A stretch of 64,000 nt of DNA from Alphaproteobacteria bacterium SO-S41 (GTDB taxonomy: Bacteria; Pseudomonadota; Alphaproteobacteria; Micropepsales; Micropepsaceae). A program made the translations under genes and the position numbers. Each line of letters begins with the position of its first letter. Within the stretch, counting starts at the first letter, position 1. The stretch lies in assembly GCA_019670725.1 (NCBI GenBank), contig AP024629.1, positions 806,001 through 870,000 of the forward strand. The letters are read 5' to 3'. Below the pieces are notes generated by a model. It made no database searches. It saw nothing but the letters and a program-made list of their open reading frames with translations, and was not told the DNA's origin. Of this stretch, positions 43,032 through 53,384 are shown one piece after another.

Positions 43032-45263
43032 CTACTGGCGCGCCATTTCGGCCGCGCCCGCGGCTTCCCAATCCAGCTCCTGCTCCGGATTCATCGTCAC
43101 GGTGACCTTGCGCAGCAAGGCGGCGAACGCGAAGGGCGACTCGTAGTCCGACACCGGGCTGCCTCGGTCGCGGCCGATATCGAGGCCCGACCACGAGATC
43201 AGCGCGAAGAAGCCGTGCTTCGGCTGGAAGCGGCCGCAGGGCACACCGTCGATCGCCATGGTGACGGTCTTGGTCGGGCCCTCCTGCCGCATCAGCAGCG
43301 ACAGGACATGATCGCCGGCCGGCACCGCGCGGTCCGACACCAGCATCTGGTGCTCGCCGCCGATATTGAGATCGTAGACGAGCTTCCCGTCGCGCATGAA
43401 CACCGCATAGCCCGAGGTCGCATCGCCATGGGCGATCAGCACGCCGCTGTCGCCGCCATTCAGCTGCACGTCCGCTTCGATCAGATACGAGCGCCCGCGC
43501 ACGTCCGGCGCCGCATCGGTCGGGACATGGCCAACGCCGCGATGAAAGACGAACTCGCGCCGCGCGTGGTTGCGCTTGGCGCTGTCGAGGAAGCGGAGGC
43601 CGAAACGGTCGTCGAGCGGCAGGACTTTGCTCGCCTCAGCGGCCTTCCACCATTCGGCGATCAGCGCCTGCAGCTTTTCCGGCTCCTTCTCGGCCAGATC
43701 GTCCGTCTCCGAAAAATCGTAGTCGAGATTGTAAAGCTCCCACACATCGTCCTCGAACGCCGTGCCGGTGGGGTGATAGGCGACGGCCTTCCAACCGTCC
43801 TTCCACAGGCCGCGATGGCCGAACATCTCGAAATATTGCGGCTTGGCCCGCGCCGCCGCGCCGGAATCGGTCAGGCTCGCCGCGAAGCTCTGGCCCTCGA
43901 GCGGCATCTGCGCGACGCCGTTGACCTCGACCGGCGGTTCGATGCCGATCAGCTCCAGCAGCGTCGGGGTCAGATCGCTCGCGTGGCAGAACTGGTTGCG
44001 GATTTCGCCGCGCGCCGGAATCCGGTTCGGCCACGAGATCACCAGCGGATCCCGGATGCCGCCGCCATGGGTGTTCTGCTTGTAGCGGCGCAGCGGCGTG
44101 TTCGACGCCATCGCCCAACCATGGGGGAAGTTCGAATGCGTGTCGGGCCCGCCGATATCGTCGATCCGCGCCAGCTTCTCGGCCATCGACTCCGGGCGGA
44201 AATTGTACGGCCCCATCGCGTTGATGAAGCCGTTCGCGCCGCCCTCCTGGCTCGCGCCGTTGTCGGAAAGAATGAGGATCAGCGTGTCGTCGCGCTGGCC
44301 GGTCGTCTCGAGGAAATCGAACAACCGCGCCAGATGCTGATCGGCATGGGTCAGCATCGCCGCATAGGCCGCCTGCAGCCGCGTGAAGATGCGCTTTTCG
44401 TCGTCGCTGTGCTCGTTCCAAGCCTGCACGCCTTCATTGCGCGCCGGCATGCGCGTGTCTTTCGGGACGATGCCCAGACCCTTCTGCCGGGTCAGCCGCC
44501 ATTCGCGCTCGACATCCCAGCCTTCGCCGAACGCCGCGTCGTAATGCTTGATGAGTTCGTCCGGCGCCTGGTGCGGCGCATGGCAGGCGCCGAGCGCCAC
44601 CCAGGTTAGCCAGGGCTTGTCCGGCGCGCCCACTTTGTGATCGGCGATCATGCGGATCGCCTGGTCGATCAGGTCTTCGGTCAGGTGATAGCCGGTCGCG
44701 TAGGTGCCGGGCGCGTCGATACCGGTATTGTCGCGCACGAGTTCCGGGGAATACTGGTCGGTCTCGGCATCCATGAAACCGTAATAGCGGTCGAAGCCGC
44801 GGCCGAGCGGCCAGCCGTCGAACGGCCCCGCCGGACCCGCCTCGCGCAGCGGCGTCACATGCCACTTGCCGAGCATGTAGTTGCGATAGCCGTGCGGCCG
44901 CAGCATCTCGGCTAGCGTCCCGGCCTCCTTCGCTATCTTGCCGCGATAGCCGGGATAGCCGCTGTCGAAATTGGCGAGACAGCCCATGCCGACCGAATGG
45001 TGGTTGCGCCCGGTCAGCAGCGCGGCGCGCGTCGTCGAGCACATCGCCGTCGTGTGAAAGCTGCTGTAGCGGAGGCCCCTTGCCGCGACCGCATCGATCG
45101 CCGGCGTCGCGATGGGCGAGCCGTAGCAGCCGAAATCGGAAAAACCGACATCGTCGAACAACACGACCAGAATATTGGGCGAGCCCTTGGGCGGGGTCGG
45201 CGCCTCCGGCCAATGAGGCGTCGAATCCTTGTAGGTCGCGCCGATCTTTCCGGGGAAGGTCAT
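43032..45263 (-). CDS. Arylsulfatase (type I sulfatase), no signal peptide, CSTTR active site
   Basis: A 743-residue alkaline-phosphatase-fold sulfatase that hydrolyses sulfate esters. Metal residues are in NILVVLFDDVGFSDFGCYG (about residues 30-48) and ILSDNGASQEGG; LGKWHVTPLREAG is also typical. The residue to be converted to formylglycine is Cys75 in AMCSTTRAALLTGRN. The motif is C-S-T-T-R, with Thr where the usual consensus C-x-P/A-x-R has Pro or Ala. A C-terminal extension of beta strands (about 600-740) resembles a concanavalin/LamG-like module. No signal peptide is present, so it should be cytoplasmic. Last gene of the dehalogenase-TetR-MBL operon. Confidence 0.92.
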   Translation of the reverse strand: MTFPGKIGATYKDSTPHWPEAPTPPKGSPNILVVLFDDVGFSDFGCYGSPIATPAIDAVAARGLRYSSFHTTAMCSTTRAALLTGRNHHSVGMGCLANFDSGYPGYRGKIAKEAGTLAEMLRPHGYRNYMLGKWHVTPLREAGPAGPFDGWPLGRGFDRYYGFMDAETDQYSPELVRDNTGIDAPGTYATGYHLTEDLIDQAIRMIADHKVGAPDKPWLTWVALGACHAPHQAPDELIKHYDAAFGEGWDVEREWRLTRQKGLGIVPKDTRMPARNEGVQAWNEHSDDEKRIFTRLQAAYAAMLTHADQHLARLFDFLETTGQRDDTLILILSDNGASQEGGANGFINAMGPYNFRPESMAEKLARIDDIGGPDTHSNFPHGWAMASNTPLRRYKQNTHGGGIRDPLVISWPNRIPARGEIRNQFCHASDLTPTLLELIGIEPPVEVNGVAQMPLEGQSFAASLTDSGAAARAKPQYFEMFGHRGLWKDGWKAVAYHPTGTAFEDDVWELYNLDYDFSETDDLAEKEPEKLQALIAEWWKAAEASKVLPLDDRFGLRFLDSAKRNHARREFVFHRGVGHVPTDAAPDVRGRSYLIEADVQLNGGDSGVLIAHGDATSGYAVFMRDGKLVYDLNIGGEHQMLVSDRAVPAGDHVLSLLMRQEGPTKTVTMAIDGVPCGRFQPKHGFFALISWSGLDIGRDRGSPVSDYESPFAFAALLRKVTVTMNPEQELDWEAAGAAEMARQ

Positions 45264-45276
45264 GCCGCGTCTCCTT

Positions 45277-46371
45277 CTAGCGTCCAAGATCGCTGAACTT
45301 CACGTCCTTCGAGCCCGCTGGCAATTCGATCAGCATACCGTCGAAGGCGAGATGCGTATCGACCCCGTCGATCCCGGTATCACGCAGGAAGAGGATGCGC
45401 CCGAACCAGCCCGGCACCGGCGGGATCAGATGGCTCAACACCAGCGTCGGCACGCCAGCGGCCGCCGCCGTCTCCGCCGCGTCGCGAGGCGAAGAATGGT
45501 AGTCGGGAATATCGTGCAGGATCTTCTCGAACCGCGGCAGCTTGTTGCGCTTGGCGGTCTCTTCCATGATCGCGACCTCCTCCATCGCCATCGCCTCGTG
45601 GATCAGCACATCGGCGCCCTTTGCGGCCTCCGCGAGCGCCGCCGACTTGTGTGTATCGCCCGAAAAGACGACCGAACGGCCCTTGTAGTCGAAACGATAG
45701 CCGAAGGCGGGCTCGATCGGCTGGTGGTCGACTGCGAAGGCGGTGATCTTGAGGCCGTTGCGCTCCAGCACGACGACCGAGCCCGAACCGTGCGTCACGC
45801 CTTCGATGACATGCGCTTCCATCGGCCCCAGTTCGGGTTTCAGGAATTCCGGTCCGTGGTGCGCGATGCGGTGGGTGCGGTCCATCGCATAGGCCTCGTT
45901 GAAGCCCGCCACGACACGCTCGACACCCGGGCCGCCATAGACCGCGAGCGGCGCGGCGCGGCCGCCGACCCAGCTCTGCAGATTGACCTCGCCGAGATCG
46001 CCGATGTGATCGGAATGAAAATGGGTCAGCAGCACCGTGCCGACGCGGCCGGCGTCGACGCGCCAGCTCGCCGCACGCTGCCACGAGCCCGACCCGGCAT
46101 CGACGACGAACATTTCGCCGGCGGCGAAGACGATGTTGCAGGCCGGTGTGCGATTCGCGTCGGGCATGGGCGAGCCGCTGCCGCAAATGCCGACACGCAG
46201 GCCGTCCTCGGCGGTGAGGCTGCTGGTGTCGCGGCTCATCACCTGTTCCACCATCATGCCGAACACGCGGTCCTGCAGCGCCGGGCTGAAGCACAGCGCA
46301 GCATAGCCGCCGGCGCCCAGCAGCACGACGAGCGCAATCCCATAGACCAGAATCCGGCGTACCGTTTTCAC
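45277..46371 (-). CDS. Metallo-beta-lactamase-fold hydrolase with N-terminal membrane anchor
   Basis: A 364-residue MBL-fold enzyme of the arylsulfatase/RNase-Z-like type. An N-terminal hydrophobic helix (ILVYGIALVVLLGAGGYAAL) marks export or anchoring. The two-zinc site is VLLTHFHSDHIGDLGEV, with further ligands in VVFSGDTHKSAAL and LVLSHLIPPV. GTG at 46371, 4 bp after the TetR stop, is preferred; TTG at 46386 is an in-frame alternative. Its position between TetR and arylsulfatase suggests hydrolysis of an ester or sulfate/sulfonate-linked compound in the same pathway; substrate unknown. Confidence 0.87.
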   Translation of the reverse strand: MKTVRRILVYGIALVVLLGAGGYAALCFSPALQDRVFGMMVEQVMSRDTSSLTAEDGLRVGICGSGSPMPDANRTPACNIVFAAGEMFVVDAGSGSWQRAASWRVDAGRVGTVLLTHFHSDHIGDLGEVNLQSWVGGRAAPLAVYGGPGVERVVAGFNEAYAMDRTHRIAHHGPEFLKPELGPMEAHVIEGVTHGSGSVVVLERNGLKITAFAVDHQPIEPAFGYRFDYKGRSVVFSGDTHKSAALAEAAKGADVLIHEAMAMEEVAIMEETAKRNKLPRFEKILHDIPDYHSSPRDAAETAAAAGVPTLVLSHLIPPVPGWFGRILFLRDTGIDGVDTHLAFDGMLIELPAGSKDVKFSDLGR

Positions 46372-46375
46372 AAAC

Positions 46376-46978
46376 CTACTCCGCAACCAGATGATGGATC
46401 GTCAGCCCCATGACGTGTTCCGCATCTGCGGGGCTCAATTGTTGTTCGTGACGCAGCCGCCGCCAGGCCTCGTAGCTGCTGGCGAGATCCAGCGCCTCAA
46501 GCCGCAGCCGGTCATGCGCAATGGCGGAAGGCAGCACGTCCAGCAGATAGGAGCGCTGTAACTGCACGAAATCGCTCTGGCGGGCCGTGATGGTGGGCGA
46601 GGCATGGCGATGCACGTCGGCCGCAACGCGGAACGGCATGATGCGTTCGAAAAGTTCGGCGCGGCGGCGGATAACCTCGTCCAGCTTCTCGCGCCAGCTC
46701 GTCCCGGTCAGCGGCCGCTCGATGATCGGCCGCACCTGCCCTTCGATCTCGTTGGCGATCTCGCGATAGAGCTGCTCCATGTCCTCGAAATGGCGGAACA
46801 CAGTGCGGAGCCCGACATCGGCGCGGGCCGCGATCTCCTCGGCGGTCGGCCCGATCTTGCCTTCGCGGACGAAATCCATGAAGGCCGCCACGATCTTGCG
46901 GCGGTTCTCTTCGCCGCGCTGACGCCGGCCATCGGGCGGGGCGTCCGTCTCACCAGTCATCGGTACCTTCACCTTCAT
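46376..46978 (-). CDS. TetR-family transcriptional regulator
   Basis: A 200-residue TetR protein: HTH from RRQRGEENRRKIVAAFMDFV to GLRTVFRHFEDMEQLYREIA (about residues 16-72) and an all-helical ligand domain with HRHASPTITARQSDFVQLQRSYL. It lies inside the operon DUF1330-TetR-MBL-sulfatase and is the only regulator between the two arms of the cluster. The palindrome at 48347-48369 is its probable operator, giving control of both arms. Confidence 0.9.
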   Translation of the reverse strand: MKVKVPMTGETDAPPDGRRQRGEENRRKIVAAFMDFVREGKIGPTAEEIAARADVGLRTVFRHFEDMEQLYREIANEIEGQVRPIIERPLTGTSWREKLDEVIRRRAELFERIMPFRVAADVHRHASPTITARQSDFVQLQRSYLLDVLPSAIAHDRLRLEALDLASSYEAWRRLRHEQQLSPADAEHVMGLTIHHLVAE

Positions 46979-48369: not shown

Positions 48370-48407
48370 CAAGCGCGTCGCGTCAAGATGTGCAGGGGAG
48401 GGCGGCG

Positions 48408-49706
48408 ATGAAAGCCGCGATCAGCCGGACGATATCCGGAGCGCTCACCAGCCATGCGTTGCGCGATGCGCAGCGCGGCGTGCGCGCGCTCATCCGCAAG
48501 GCGAGGGGACGCATGGCAGAGGTTTCGTATTTCCATCAGGCCGACGATCCCTACAGCCACCTGGCTGTGCAGACGCTCGAACGGCTTGCCGCGCGCTATG
48601 CGATCGCGCTGAAGATCCACATCGTCCCGCCACCCGACGACGGCGCCGCGCCTGACCGCGAGCGCCTCGCGGCCTGGTCCCTGCGCGACGCTGCGACGCT
48701 GGCGCAGCGTCTGGGCCTTGTCTGGCCCGAACAGCCCGTTACACCAGCCCGCGATGCCATCGCGCTGGCCAATGCCGCGCTGGCGGCTGCCGCAGCGGCC
48801 CCCGACTTCGCGCGCCGCGCGATCGAGATCGGCACGGCCTTCTGGCGCGGCGACGGCGAGGCGCTGACCCAGCATGCCGTCGCCGGCTCGCCCGAGACCT
48901 CCGCCGCGGCGATGGGCGAAAGCGCCAAGCTCCGCGCCGAGCGCGGCCACTATCTGGGCGCGACCTTTCACTTCGAAGGCGAATGGTATTGGGGCGTCGA
49001 CCGCCTGCACTATCTGGAAGCGCGCCTCCGCGCCGCCGGTCTCGCCAAGGCCGAGGACGAAGGCTTCATCGCCCCTGTCAAGGATGTGGAGCTTGCCGTG
49101 CAGCCGACCAACGGCGCACGGCCCGAGCTCCACTTCTTCTTCTCGTTCCGCAGTCCCTACACCTATATCAGCGTGCCGCGCGTCCGCCGCCTCGCGAAGC
49201 ATTATGGCGCGGATCTGAAGCTCCGCTTCATCTTGCCGATGGTGATGCGCGGCCTGCCGGTGCCGCGCGCGAAGAGCATGTACATCATGCGCGACACCAA
49301 GCGCGAAGCCGACCGCGTCGGCATGCCCTTCGGCCGCATCGTCGATCCCGTCGGCCTCGCGACCGAACGCGGCATCGCGGTGCTGCATCACGCGATCCCG
49401 CTCGGCCGCGGCGAGGATTTCGCCGAATCCTTTCTGCGCGGCGTCTGGTCGGAAGGCGTCGATGCCACGACCGAAGCCGGCCTCAACACCATCGCCGCGC
49501 GCGCCGGCCTCCAACCCGACTTCGTTGCCGAAGCGCTGAAGGACGACAGCTGGCGCGCGCCTGCCGAAGTCAATCGCGCCGAGCTCCTGTCGATGGGCCT
49601 CTGGGGCGCGCCGACGCTTCGCGTCAACGACCGTCCGGGACAATGGGGCCAGGACCGGCTCTGGGTCATCGAGAACGACCTCATCGCCGCGACGGAGGCC
49701 AAATGA
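48408..49706 (+). CDS. Tandem DsbA-like/2-hydroxychromene-2-carboxylate isomerase-like protein
   Basis: A 432-residue protein containing two kappa-class thioredoxin-fold repeats. The first starts at MAEVSYFHQADDPYSHLAV (about residue 36); the second at LHFFFSFRSPYTYISVPRVR (about residue 245). Each has the Ser/Asp-Pro-Tyr active-site turn of the HCCA-isomerase/GST-kappa group instead of DsbA's CxxC, and the second ends in LWGAPTLRVND. Single-domain relatives use glutathione to isomerise aromatic catabolites. The duplicated form and co-transcription with a GST (ATGA overlap) point to a glutathione-dependent step. GGGGAGGG precedes ATG 48408. Substrate unknown. Confidence 0.85.
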   Translation: MKAAISRTISGALTSHALRDAQRGVRALIRKARGRMAEVSYFHQADDPYSHLAVQTLERLAARYAIALKIHIVPPPDDGAAPDRERLAAWSLRDAATLAQRLGLVWPEQPVTPARDAIALANAALAAAAAAPDFARRAIEIGTAFWRGDGEALTQHAVAGSPETSAAAMGESAKLRAERGHYLGATFHFEGEWYWGVDRLHYLEARLRAAGLAKAEDEGFIAPVKDVELAVQPTNGARPELHFFFSFRSPYTYISVPRVRRLAKHYGADLKLRFILPMVMRGLPVPRAKSMYIMRDTKREADRVGMPFGRIVDPVGLATERGIAVLHHAIPLGRGEDFAESFLRGVWSEGVDATTEAGLNTIAARAGLQPDFVAEALKDDSWRAPAEVNRAELLSMGLWGAPTLRVNDRPGQWGQDRLWVIENDLIAATEAK

Positions 49707-50728
49707 GCGACGCCGTTCAACTCAGCGGCGCGCCGGGCTCGCCGTATACGCGCAAGATGCTCGCCGTGCTGCGCTATCGGCGCATCCCCTATCGCTTCCT
49801 GATCGGCACGCATGGCGGTCCGCCCGGCCTGCCCAAGCCCAAGGTCGAACTCCTCCCCACCTTCTATCTGCCGAACAAGGACGGCGTGCTCGAAGCGGTG
49901 GTGGATTCGACGCCTATCATCCGCCGCCTCGAACGCGAACATGCCGGGCGTGCCGTCGTGCCCTCCGATCCAGCGCTCCGCTTCATCGACGAGCTGCTGG
50001 AAGACTATGCCGACGAGTGGCTGACCAAGGCGATGTTCCACTATCGCTGGTACTACACGGCGGATATCGAACGGGCTGGCGACATCCTCCCGATCTGGCG
50101 CGGCATCACCGCGCCCGCCGATCAACTCACCGCCGCCAAGGCCATGTTCTCCCAGCGCCAGATCGACCGCCTCTATGTTGTCGGCTCGAATGCAGTGACC
50201 GCACCGGTCATCGAAGCCAGCTATGTCCGCTTCCTCGCGCTGATGGAGGCGCATCTCGCACACCATCCCTTCCTGATGGGCGGGCGGCCCGGCGCCAGCG
50301 ACTTCGGCGCCTATGGTCAGCTCACTCAGCTCAGCCATTTCGACCCGACGCCGATGGCCCTCACGCTTGAAAAAGCCAAGCGCGTCTTTGCCTGGACCGA
50401 TGTGATGGAGGATCTGTCCGGCCTCGAACCTGGCGCCTGGCTCGATCCCGCCGATCTGCCGCCGACGCTGATCGCCCTGTTCGGCGAACTCGCACGCACC
50501 TACGTCCCGGTCATGCTCGCCAATGCGCGGGCGCTGAAGGCGGGGGACGACACGGTGGAGACCGAGATCGACGGCCTGCCCTGGACCCAGCAACCGTTCC
50601 CCTATCAAGGAAAATGCCTCTCCTGGCTGCGCCTCTCGCACGCGACCCTGCCCGACAAGGCCAAGGCGATCGTCGATGCGCTGCTCGATGCCACCGGTTG
50701 CGCGCCGCTTATCCGCGAGACCATCTGA
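49703..50728 (+). CDS. Glutathione S-transferase family protein (large form)
   Basis: A 341-residue protein with an N-terminal thioredoxin-like GST domain (VQLSGAPGSPYTRKMLAVLRYRRIPYRFL, then VDSTPIIRRLEREHAG, the glutathione gamma-glutamyl site) and a long helical C-terminal domain (FLMGGRPGASDFGAYGQLTQL). At about 340 residues it is longer than typical 200-230-residue GSTs. The Ser/Tyr in SPYTRK may activate glutathione. It overlaps the double-thioredoxin gene at its start and the FGE gene at its stop (TGATG), so all four right-arm genes form one operon. It does not show the zeta-class maleylacetoacetate isomerase signature (SSCSxR). Confidence 0.85.
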   Translation: MSDAVQLSGAPGSPYTRKMLAVLRYRRIPYRFLIGTHGGPPGLPKPKVELLPTFYLPNKDGVLEAVVDSTPIIRRLEREHAGRAVVPSDPALRFIDELLEDYADEWLTKAMFHYRWYYTADIERAGDILPIWRGITAPADQLTAAKAMFSQRQIDRLYVVGSNAVTAPVIEASYVRFLALMEAHLAHHPFLMGGRPGASDFGAYGQLTQLSHFDPTPMALTLEKAKRVFAWTDVMEDLSGLEPGAWLDPADLPPTLIALFGELARTYVPVMLANARALKAGDDTVETEIDGLPWTQQPFPYQGKCLSWLRLSHATLPDKAKAIVDALLDATGCAPLIRETI

Positions 50729-51723
50729 TGCGCGCCCGTCTCGCCCTCGCCGCCGTCGCGCTGCTTCTGGCAGCCTGCGGCGACGCGACGGTGGAGACCG
50801 CGCAATGCGGCATCGCGCCCCCGCCGCCTCAGCCTGGCGACACCGCCGGCATGGCCGCGATCCCCGCGGGCACGATGACCATGGGCGCCGCGGCGATGCA
50901 GCCGGGCGAAGGTCCCGCTTTGCGCGTTGACGTCGCCGCCTTCCGCATCGACCGCACCGACGTGACGAACGCGCAGTTCGCCGCCTTCGTCGCCGCGACG
51001 GGGTATGTGACGCTCGCCGAACGCGGCCCGGAACCGGCCTCGCTCGTCTTCACTGGCGCCGAGGGACCGATCAACATCAACGATCCCTCGGAGTGGTGGC
51101 GCATCGTGCCCGGCGCGGACTGGCGCCACCCGACTGGTCCGGACAGCGATCTCGACGGCAGGGCCAATCTCCCGGTCGTGCACATCGCCTATGAGGATGC
51201 GCTCGCCTATGCGCACTGGCTCGGCCGCGATCTGCCGACCGAGGCGGAATGGGAATATGCCGCGCGCGGCGGCATCGATGGCGCGCGCTATGCCTGGGGC
51301 GACGCCGCGCCCGATCCCGCCCATCCCCGCGCCAATACCTGGCAGGGCATGTTCCCACTGCAGGACACCGGCGGCGACGGCTTCAAGGCGTCGGCCTCGC
51401 CGGTCGGCTGCTACGCGCCCAACGGCTACGGCCTCTACGACATGGCCGGCAATGTCTGGCAGTGGACCAAGGATGTCTGGCGTCCCGGCCTCGACGCGCG
51501 CGACGAGGAACCCGAGACCGCCTCCTACGATCCGCGCGACGCGCTGGCCGAACAGCGCGTCATCAAGGGCGGTTCGTTCCTCTGCGCCGACAATTACTGC
51601 CTGCGCTATCGCCCCGCCGCGCGCACCGCGGCGGCGTCGGGCGACGGCGCATCCCATATCGGCTTCCGCACCGTGCTGCGGCCGCCGCAACAGCAACAAC
51701 AAGCGGAGGCGGGCTCGCCATGA
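50728..51723 (+). CDS. Formylglycine-generating enzyme (FGE/SUMF1 family), lipoprotein
   Basis: A 331-residue FGE-sulfatase-domain protein that oxidises the active-site Cys of sulfatases to formylglycine. The N-terminal signal LALAAVALLLAAC has a lipobox with lipidated Cys17, followed by Gly, so outer-membrane sorting is likely. Domain motifs include MAAIPAGTMTMG, FRIDRTDVTNAQFAAFV, GRDLPTEAEWEYAARGG and YGLYDMAGNVWQWT. The redox/copper cysteines of true FGEs are present as Cys286 and Cys291 in SFLCADNYCLRYRPAAR, matching the SUMF1 active site, unlike generic SUMF1-domain lipoproteins. A Gln-rich tail ends it. It overlaps the sulfatase start by ATGA. Confidence 0.92.
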   Translation: MRARLALAAVALLLAACGDATVETAQCGIAPPPPQPGDTAGMAAIPAGTMTMGAAAMQPGEGPALRVDVAAFRIDRTDVTNAQFAAFVAATGYVTLAERGPEPASLVFTGAEGPININDPSEWWRIVPGADWRHPTGPDSDLDGRANLPVVHIAYEDALAYAHWLGRDLPTEAEWEYAARGGIDGARYAWGDAAPDPAHPRANTWQGMFPLQDTGGDGFKASASPVGCYAPNGYGLYDMAGNVWQWTKDVWRPGLDARDEEPETASYDPRDALAEQRVIKGGSFLCADNYCLRYRPAARTAAASGDGASHIGFRTVLRPPQQQQQAEAGSP

Positions 51724-53384
51724 TCAAGAAAATCCTGTTGGGCGTCGTCATTCTCGCCCTTGTCGTGGTCGGCGGCTATTTCGCGCTCGGCGGCCGCGAG
51801 GGCCTGATCCTCCTTTATGCGAACTACATGAAGGAGACGCCCGCCCCGAACCACGAGGTCGTCTGGCAGCAAGGCCCCGACGCGCCGCCGGTGTTGGCCG
51901 CGGGCGAGAAGCGTAAGCCCAACATCATCGTCATCCTCGCCGACGATCTCGGCTTCAACGACGTCTCCTTTTATGGCGGCGGCACGGCGGGCGGCCTCAT
52001 CAAAACGCCGAACATCGATTCGATCGGCAAGGGCGGCGTCAACTTTCCCGCGGGCTATGCAGGCAATGCGACCTGCGCCCCGTCCCGCGCGGCGCTGATG
52101 ACCGGGCGCTACGCCACGCGCTTCGGTTATGAGTTCACGCCGACCGCCCTCGGCTTCCAGCGCCTCGTCGGCAACTCGCACGGGATGAGCCCCTTGCCGC
52201 CGATCTATCATGCGGACCGCGAAGCCGACGTGCCTGACTTCCGCCAGCTCGGCCTGCCGCTGACCGAAACGACGATCGGCGGCATGCTGCAGAAGGCGGG
52301 CTACCACACCATCCATCTCGGCAAGTGGCACCTCGGCGAACAGCCCGAGCAGCGGCCGGAAGCGCGCGGCTTCGATGAAAGCCTCGGCTTCTACGCTGGC
52401 GCCTCGATGTTCATGCGCGAGGACGATCCGGACGTCGTCAACTCCAAGCAGGATTTCGACCCGATCGACAAGTTCCTGTGGGCCGCGCTGAACAACGGCG
52501 TGCGGTACAATTCCAGCCCGGTCTTCGAGGCCAAGGGCCACATGACCGACTACCTCACCGATCAGGCAGTGGCGGCGATCCAGGCCAACCGCAACCGGCC
52601 CTTCTTCATGTATCTCGCCTATAACGCGGTCCACACGCCGTTGCAGGCGACCAAGGAAGACTACGACGCACTGCCGGAGATCAAGGACCACACGCTGCGC
52701 GTCTACGCCGCGATGGTCCGCCAGCTCGATCGCGACATCGGCAAGGTGCTGGCCGAGCTGAAGGCCCAGGGCCTTGAAGGCGACACGCTCGTCATCTTCA
52801 CCAGCGACAATGGCGGCGCGCACTATGTCGGGCTCGACGATCTAAACAAGCCCTATAGCGGCTGGAAGGCGACCTTCTACGAAGGCGGCATCCGCATTCC
52901 GTTCTTCATGCGCTGGCCGGGCGTGATCCCCGCCGGCTCGACCTATGCGGCGCCGATCAGCCATTTCGATGTCTTCGCGACCGCGGCCGGCGCGGCGGGC
53001 GAAGCGGTGCCGGCGGATCGCAAGATCGACGGCGTCAACCTGCTGCCGTTCCTCACGGGCGGGCAGGGCGGCGAGCCGCACCAGCGTCTCTTCTGGCGCT
53101 CGGGACCTTATGTCGTGGTGCGCGAAGGCGACTGGAAGCTGCAGGTCGACGGCACGCAGAAGCTGACCATGCTCTATGACCTCGCGACCGATCCGGCCGA
53201 AAAGACCAACCTCGCCGACCGGAACCCCGAAAAGGTCGCGGCGCTGCAGGCCGAGATCGCCGACTTCCAGAAGGAACAGGTGAAGCCGCTCTGGCCGGCG
53301 CTGATGGAAGGCGTCGTCCCCATCGACCACCCGCTGAACCGCCCGTGGGGCGAGAAGGACCGCTACATCTACTGGTCGAACTGA
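51720..53384 (+). CDS. Membrane-anchored sulfatase (type I, CAPSR)
   Basis: A 554-residue sulfatase with an N-terminal uncleaved or signal-type helix (KKILLGVVILALVVVGGYFAL), so it acts in the periplasm. Metal residues are in NIIVILADDLGFNDVSFYGG (about 68-87) and FTSDNGGAHYVG. The formylglycine precursor is Cys119 in NATCAPSRAALMTGR, the canonical C-x-P-x-R. LGKWHLGEQPEQRPEARGFD follows. It is coupled to the lipoprotein FGE by a 4-bp overlap, implying maturation in the same compartment. Related members act on arylsulfates, carbohydrates or steroid sulfates; the substrate is open. Confidence 0.94.
   Translation: MIKKILLGVVILALVVVGGYFALGGREGLILLYANYMKETPAPNHEVVWQQGPDAPPVLAAGEKRKPNIIVILADDLGFNDVSFYGGGTAGGLIKTPNIDSIGKGGVNFPAGYAGNATCAPSRAALMTGRYATRFGYEFTPTALGFQRLVGNSHGMSPLPPIYHADREADVPDFRQLGLPLTETTIGGMLQKAGYHTIHLGKWHLGEQPEQRPEARGFDESLGFYAGASMFMREDDPDVVNSKQDFDPIDKFLWAALNNGVRYNSSPVFEAKGHMTDYLTDQAVAAIQANRNRPFFMYLAYNAVHTPLQATKEDYDALPEIKDHTLRVYAAMVRQLDRDIGKVLAELKAQGLEGDTLVIFTSDNGGAHYVGLDDLNKPYSGWKATFYEGGIRIPFFMRWPGVIPAGSTYAAPISHFDVFATAAGAAGEAVPADRKIDGVNLLPFLTGGQGGEPHQRLFWRSGPYVVVREGDWKLQVDGTQKLTMLYDLATDPAEKTNLADRNPEKVAALQAEIADFQKEQVKPLWPALMEGVVPIDHPLNRPWGEKDRYIYWSN

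Follow-up and report, generated by a model that had tools for sequence, protein, structure and literature searches.

The 64,000-nucleotide stretch analysed here (the window; contig AP024629.1 of Alphaproteobacteria bacterium SO-S41, positions 806,001 to 870,000) carries a gene for a formylglycine-generating enzyme (FGE, here P0001) whose end overlaps the start of a gene for an S1 sulfatase (P0002). The best-supported reading of this pair, to which we assign a probability of roughly 0.84, is that the FGE is exported and matures its neighbour in the periplasm, the place of formylglycine formation being judged from sequence. This reading is favoured because FGE export and export of the neighbouring sulfatase by the general secretory (Sec) pathway go together among homologous pairs (39/39 for exported FGEs versus 8/39 for cytosolic ones) and because a cysteine pair of P0001, Cys27/Cys228, tracks export. 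Gene content, motifs, fold, export signals and the statistical linkage of compartments are directly established. The original prediction for this locus had proposed maturation after export, in the periplasm, by a lipoprotein FGE, and both the pairing and the cysteine pair point the same way. An exported FGE is not peculiar to this locus, as 96 of 182 FGE homologues look exported, and the window pair is less an oddity than a representative of a widespread exported FGE branch, present in several phyla.

In the mechanism that we propose, P0001 would leave the cytoplasm through Sec and become a lipoprotein, and Sec would also insert P0002, whose catalytic domain would face the periplasm. The unfolded CAPSR segment of P0002 would then be bound by P0001 in the periplasm and Cys119 oxidised to formylglycine by the copper/O2 chemistry of FGEs before the sulfatase folds, while Cys27 and Cys228 would form a structural disulfide suited to this compartment. 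For this scheme we infer the start of the FGE, its actual export and lipidation, the disulfide, and the place and time of Cys119 conversion.

Identity and predicted export of the FGE

By sequence and fold P0001 is a genuine FGE, of predicted copper/O2 catalysis. It carries a PF03781 (FGE-sulfatase) domain (Pfam, E 7.6e-78), global similarity to proven FGEs and the CxxxxC pair, and its closest solved sequence is the Thermomonospora curvata FGE (E 9.8e-77, 262 bits). The active-site cysteines Cys286 and Cys291, which the original prediction had reported as kept, are indeed at these positions and are invariant in 104/104 aligned sequences; the translation contains exactly five cysteines (17, 27, 228, 286 and 291). 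An AlphaFold model built from the 104-row alignment reached a pLDDT (predicted local distance difference test) of 90.7, an earlier and poor model from 12 sequences (pLDDT 56) having been discarded. In a Foldseek search with this model the top ranks were copper-FGE structures (6xtq, TMt 0.83, 46% identity), and TMt values were 0.82-0.88 to FGE structures versus 0.43-0.45 to PorK.

That P0001 might instead be a non-catalytic lipoprotein of FGE fold (GldK/PorK) or an enzyme of the PvdO or EgtB type, lying beside a sulfatase by accident, is very improbable. GldK, a lipoprotein of the same fold, is its best NCBIfam match, but at 116 bits it stays far under the GldK cut-off of 350, and none of the listed NCBIfam families reaches its own cut-off with P0001 (PvdO 72 bits, cut-off 500; EgtB 95.5 bits, cut-off 360). 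A true FGE is matched better in score and in superposition, and neither the cysteine pair present in every aligned sequence nor the recurrent pairing with sulfatases agrees with an incidental neighbour. GldK/PorK proteins of the type IX secretion system are, like P0001, exported FGE-fold lipoproteins, but unlike it they are a structural ring component. PvdO of Pseudomonas (5hha) has the FGE fold in common with P0001, with a weak family match as given above; it is periplasmic, its substrate is a pyoverdine precursor and not a sulfatase, and to our knowledge it has no CxxxxC pair.

The original prediction of a lipobox (LAAC, Cys17) ahead of the SUMF1 domain is borne out by translation from the start that we infer, at position 50728. 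The frame is open further upstream and contains an in-frame ATG at 50614, inside the preceding gene; its Shine-Dalgarno score of 4 slightly exceeds that of the start at 50728 (3), and an automatic start chooser picked it. We nevertheless prefer 50728, because there the sequence TGATG (50726-50730) overlaps the upstream stop codon and the conserved lipobox becomes N-terminal. In four relatives from the genus or family (L010-L013), 61-69% identical to P0001, the lipobox is kept as LGAC, LAAC, LVAC and LSAC; the N-terminus around it has diverged, and in each a start is available from which the lipobox is N-terminal. The lipobox of P0001 is thus more than chance, since it is kept in these relatives despite the divergence, and the lipoprotein signature so read depends on the chosen start. 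More distant homologues in the family have an N-terminal anchor or a signal peptide in its place. The +2 residue after Cys17 is Gly, which presumably, by the E. coli rule, predicts no retention in the inner membrane.

The sulfatase satisfies the description of a Cys-type S1 enzyme, with a PF00884 domain and a C-x-P-x-R motif, and its best solved match is the exo-4S-kappa-carrageenan S1 sulfatase 6prm (E 2.8e-88). Its N-terminus, MIKKILLGVVILALVVVGGYFALGG, is hydrophobic; the original prediction had noted an N-terminal helix here, along with the CAPSR motif, whose Cys119 is the only cysteine of the protein. By eye the anchor shows no obvious cleavage site; it is conserved in orthologues (e.g. 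L204, L205, L206, L211, L222), and in L204-L206 it is again followed by a GREGLILL-like stretch. Under the positive-inside rule lysines ahead of an anchor stay on the cytosolic side, and because two of them precede this one we place the catalytic domain in the periplasm.

Compartment matching of FGEs and neighbouring sulfatases

FGE homologues were collected from four sources. In the family, 30 of 96 genomes gave a match, in the class 26/289 and in the phylum 60/398; a named genome collection contributed 80 loci, the best of 584 confirmed, and because these were picked by similarity to the query its phylum counts are not population frequencies. Wider regions were taken for 109 family, class and phylum matches plus the window's own (L313). 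Fifteen weaker or partial matches (5 family, 7 class, 3 phylum) were not counted, and ambiguous, truncated or duplicate entries were left out before counting (L049, L084, L092, L108, one FGE of L229, L230, L234 and L299, as well as the copy in L213 of the second FGE of L229). Ten exported labels were set by eye (L065, L077, L079, L213, L289, L295, L308, L050, L064, L085), as was the lipoprotein kind for the window and L204, where the automatic start lies upstream. The resulting 182 homologues with a CxxxxC pair comprised 96 exported-looking and 86 cytosolic proteins, the former made up of 26 lipoproteins (3 by eye), 56 with a Sec signal or anchor, 5 in which RR precedes the hydrophobic stretch, and 9 assigned by eye. 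Among the best 80 of 584 from the named collection, all counted Bacteroidota (15/15), Verrucomicrobiota (5/5) and Cyanobacteriota (2/2) were exported and all counted Actinomycetota (15/15), Bacillota (3/3) and Chloroflexota (2/2) cytosolic; every counted Planctomycetota row was exported.

Adjacent pairs were defined by a common strand, a gap of -150 to +400 base pairs (bp) and readable N-termini on both sides. Sulfatases without a readable start, together with L057 and L078, were dropped, which reduced 83 pairs to 78; sulfatase classes were overridden in L225 (from twin-arginine translocation, Tat, to Sec by eye), L252, L257, L268 and L306, and L223 was set to Sec. Other FGE/sulfatase pairs with matched signals, searched for in this way, were found: all 39 exported FGEs lie beside Sec or lipoprotein sulfatases and none beside a signal-less or Tat sulfatase, whereas the partner of the 39 cytosolic FGEs is signal-less in 14 pairs, a Tat sulfatase in 17 and a Sec or lipoprotein sulfatase in 8 (Fisher p 2.3e-14 over the 78 pairs). 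Tat sulfatases, which are expected to fold before export, occur exclusively beside cytosolic FGEs (17/17, after re-classing of L225). The asymmetry makes sense because a sulfatase that remains in the cytoplasm, or folds there, is out of reach for an exported FGE, while an FGE inside can act on a Sec substrate before export. In a Phycisphaerales metagenome-assembled genome the two activities would even be joined in one protein: a single frame of 815 residues (L050, 4468-6915) with a signal-like N-terminus combines an S1 sulfatase motif, CTPSR, with the FGE motif GGSFLCAPGFC.

Cysteine content follows the same division. Cys228 occurs in 47/96 exported FGEs versus 0/86 cytosolic ones, and in all 47 it is accompanied by a cysteine in the linker that joins signal and domain, detected by rule in 41 and by eye in 6 (L217, L223, L225, L227, L237, L272). 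The simplest reading of this co-occurrence is a Cys27-Cys228 disulfide that would fix the linker to the domain. By rule, and with earlier labels, a linker cysteine was also found in 12/46 exported-labelled FGEs without Cys228 and in 42/89 cytosolic-labelled ones (24 with a vicinal CC, 18 not); since it is common in cytosolic rows too, it is by itself no mark of export, while Cys228 is one in this sample. Conversely, a vicinal CC is found in 81/86 cytosolic FGEs versus 4/96 exported ones and is absent from P0001. It lies at the N-terminus or in a loop that aligns between P0001 positions 258 and 259, often followed by NPR (for example L097, 5902-6867, and L293, 4396-5367), and is possibly a copper-loading or reductant site. 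On the FGE tree Cys228 changes 4 times and the vicinal CC 9 times; for Cys228 an independent contrast was found in just 0.8 of 4 cases on average.

The sulfatases themselves carry an odd number of cysteines in 39/39 cases beside exported FGEs (exactly one in 30/39) and in 24/38 beside cytosolic FGEs. As the latter include all 8 Sec or lipoprotein sulfatases, cysteine parity appears to mark export of the sulfatase and not the site of its maturation.

Taken over the whole sample, we consider it fairly probable that FGEs are split by compartment, with a large exported branch, partly equipped with periplasmic disulfides, that would mature only Sec sulfatases, after translocation, much as in the endoplasmic reticulum (ER), and two cytosolic branches, carrying the vicinal CC, that would serve mainly signal-less and Tat sulfatases.

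Points against periplasmic maturation

Several observations weigh against periplasmic maturation. The N-terminal classes come from a hydrophobicity and lipobox rule with manual overrides, not from a trained predictor. The eight cytosolic FGEs that lie beside Sec or lipoprotein sulfatases (L051, L233, L252, L254, L256, L257, L267, L275) indicate that a Sec sulfatase can do without an exported FGE. With the corrected labels, export state changes just 2 times on the FGE tree, so that few independent events carry the linkage; the labels used until the last three corrections gave 5 changes, against a mean of 61 after shuffling. Only two independent contrasts hold both traits (FastTree tree, labels before the last corrections). 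These run in the expected direction in 1.8 cases on average and in the opposite direction in none, and two contrasts are too few for a test.

The correlation could then reflect lineage alone, diderm bacteria having inherited exported FGEs and also tending towards Sec sulfatases without the two being functionally connected. We regard this as unlikely, though the most serious of the alternatives. It gains from the two export-state changes and from the uniformity of the counted phyla, with Bacteroidota, Planctomycetota and Verrucomicrobiota wholly exported and Actinomycetota and Bacillota wholly cytosolic. Both kinds of FGE, however, occur inside the window's own family, each with the matching type of sulfatase: cytosolic FGEs beside Tat sulfatases in L209, L216 and L226, and exported FGEs beside anchored sulfatases in L204-L206, L211, L220, L222, L223 and L225. 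The contrasts, few as they are, never run the other way.

Two further points against concern P0001 itself. A start at the upstream ATG would bury the lipobox 54 residues inside the protein, and the genome encodes five Cys-type sulfatases that lack a signal, and no cytosolic maturase was recognised in it, so that P0001 might act inside too. Six PF00884 proteins were found in the genome, of which P0002 alone has an export signal; the other five (motifs CSTTR, CSPTR, CGPGR, CSPSR and CMPAR; L003, L004, L006, L007, L008) lack one whichever candidate start is taken. The genome search for PF03781 gave two proteins, with the cysteine pair in P0001 only, and the anaerobic sulfatase-maturating enzyme (anSME) family TIGR03942 had no match in the genome. 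Since P0002 alone of the six has an export signal, it is the sole sulfatase that P0001 could meet outside the cytoplasm. Also on the supporting side, 20 of the 96 family genomes have P0002 orthologues (>380 bits), accompanied by an FGE match in 18; the two without one (G085 and G091) are 88% and 86% complete.

These five sulfatases are the principal argument for an alternative in which P0001 acts in the cytoplasm, as a precursor, as a longer form from 50614 or as a shorter product begun at an internal codon (Met42, for example), and also matures the signal-less enzymes, its exported form being a by-product. The in-frame upstream ATG and the position of Met42 at the start of the domain speak in its favour. 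Met42 is not conserved (GDV in L010 and GLV in L013 at this place) and has no Shine-Dalgarno match, and an internal start there was rejected as a general route to a cytosolic FGE form; the export signal and the Cys27/Cys228 pair, by contrast, are conserved. Furthermore, signal-less Cys-type sulfatases were read in family relatives that have no P0001 match, among them G061 (L322), G066 (L341, a complete single-contig genome) and G093 (L336). An anSME search in eight such relatives gave scores above the cut-off (349 bits) in G049, G050 and G051, below it in G066 (145 bits) and in G048, G061 and G067 (<26 bits), and no match in G093. All eight have PF03781 matches, and CxxxxC was absent from 16/16 of the loci read, one weak match (G093:C37:138279, 24.8 bits) having been left unread. 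Signal-less Cys-type sulfatases thus persist without either recognised maturase in at least some family members, and because such sulfatases also occur where no Cys-pair FGE was found, a cytosolic form of P0001 is not implied and the five of the present genome probably depend on something else. We therefore hold cytoplasmic action to be distinctly improbable. Excerpts of PMC6189696 (citing Benjdia 2007) and PMC8379841 mention a suspected third maturation system in E. coli, and the former also slow turnover by an unmodified choline sulfatase.

Two observations on related proteins were made in passing. The window contains a second, signal-less sulfatase (43032-45287, minus strand, 751 residues) with CSTTR, in which Thr stands where Pro or Ala is usual; related proteins in genomes G012 and G013 also have CSTTR. 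Its frame overlaps by 11 bp that of a metallo-beta-lactamase-fold protein with an N-terminal hydrophobic segment (45277-46386, minus strand). In 7 of 8 family genomes checked we found FGE-fold proteins that have signal-like N-termini but lack the cysteine pair (L344-L350, of the RGGSWDN/RGGAWNN type), which are either PvdO-like or of a function not assignable from sequence.

Locus, known systems and meaning

The features of the locus are collected in Table 1. The FGE and sulfatase genes share 4 bp (ATGA, 51720-51723), the overlap noted in the original prediction. Upstream lie a glutathione S-transferase (GST)-like gene and a DsbA-like gene, the latter of the 2-hydroxychromene-2-carboxylate isomerase type as we take it, and because successive genes overlap the four are likely to form one operon. 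Among 36 loci compared, a GST-like orthologue lies near the pair in L204, L205, L211, L223, L225, L242 and L246, and a DsbA-like one in L204, L206, L223 and L225. The presence of these two partners (48390-50728) near pairs in other genera may hint at a catabolic pathway and not at polysaccharide use.

Table 1. Features of the predicted FGE/sulfatase operon, in window coordinates
Feature	Position	Strand	Evidence or remark
DsbA-like gene, first of putative operon	48390..49706	+	PF01323 E 6.6e-20
GST-like gene P0003	49703..50728	+	4-bp overlap with the DsbA-like gene at its start; stop codon shared in part with the FGE start
FGE gene P0001, 331 residues, predicted lipoprotein	50728..51723	+	translation, Pfam, structure model; start preferred to the ATG at 50614
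Lipobox LAAC, residues 14-17, Cys17 predicted to be lipidated	50767..50778	+	
Cys27, linker cysteine, predicted partner of Cys228	50806..50808	+	
Cys228, restricted to exported FGEs in the sample	51409..51411	+	
GGSFLCADNYC, active-site motif of FGEs, holding Cys286 and Cys291	51568..51600	+	
S1 sulfatase gene P0002, 554 residues	51720..53384	+	PF00884 E 1.2e-58
Sulfatase N-terminal hydrophobic anchor, residues 5-23, after Lys3 and Lys4	51732..51788	+	
CAPSR motif, Cys119 predicted formylglycine site, sole Cys of P0002	52074..52088	+	

P0001 resembles the cytosolic bacterial FGEs of T. curvata and Streptomyces coelicolor (6s07/6xtq, 2q17/6muj) in sequence (42-48% identity), fold and active-site cysteine pair, but adds the lipobox and Cys27/Cys228 and lacks the vicinal CC of most cytosolic homologues. 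The eukaryotic FGE of the ER (SUMF1) likewise acts on unfolded, Sec-translocated sulfatases in an oxidising compartment, as is proposed for P0001; in the human enzyme a residue other than Cys aligns with position 228, and we know of no lipid anchor on it. The radical-SAM anSME maturases also make formylglycine in sulfatases but are unrelated enzymes.

Excerpts of PMC4505483 name two structural disulfides of SUMF1 and place prokaryotic FGE in the reducing cytosol, and those of PMC3920027 describe Cys-type sulfatases as typically cytosolic and Ser-type ones as periplasmic. For two Kiritimatiellales strains most sulfatases are predicted to be exported, according to excerpts of PMC6388578, which give no location for FGE. 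In the portions of the open-licence literature covered (including PMC6388578, PMC6923384, PMC9723792, PMC10154612 and PMC5066984) we found no description of an exported FGE proper; an earlier description elsewhere is possible.

Should exported FGEs be active in the compartment to which they are directed, many bacteria would make formylglycine in the periplasm, in parallel to the ER, and sulfatase maturation in bacteria would be a two-compartment process and not a purely cytosolic one. This would bear on the copper and electron supply of FGEs and on which enzyme matures which sulfatases, and it yields a testable rule, namely that exported FGEs go with Sec sulfatases and cytosolic FGEs mostly with cytosolic or Tat sulfatases. 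For recombinant use, an exported FGE-sulfatase pair might be co-expressed in the periplasm of E. coli.

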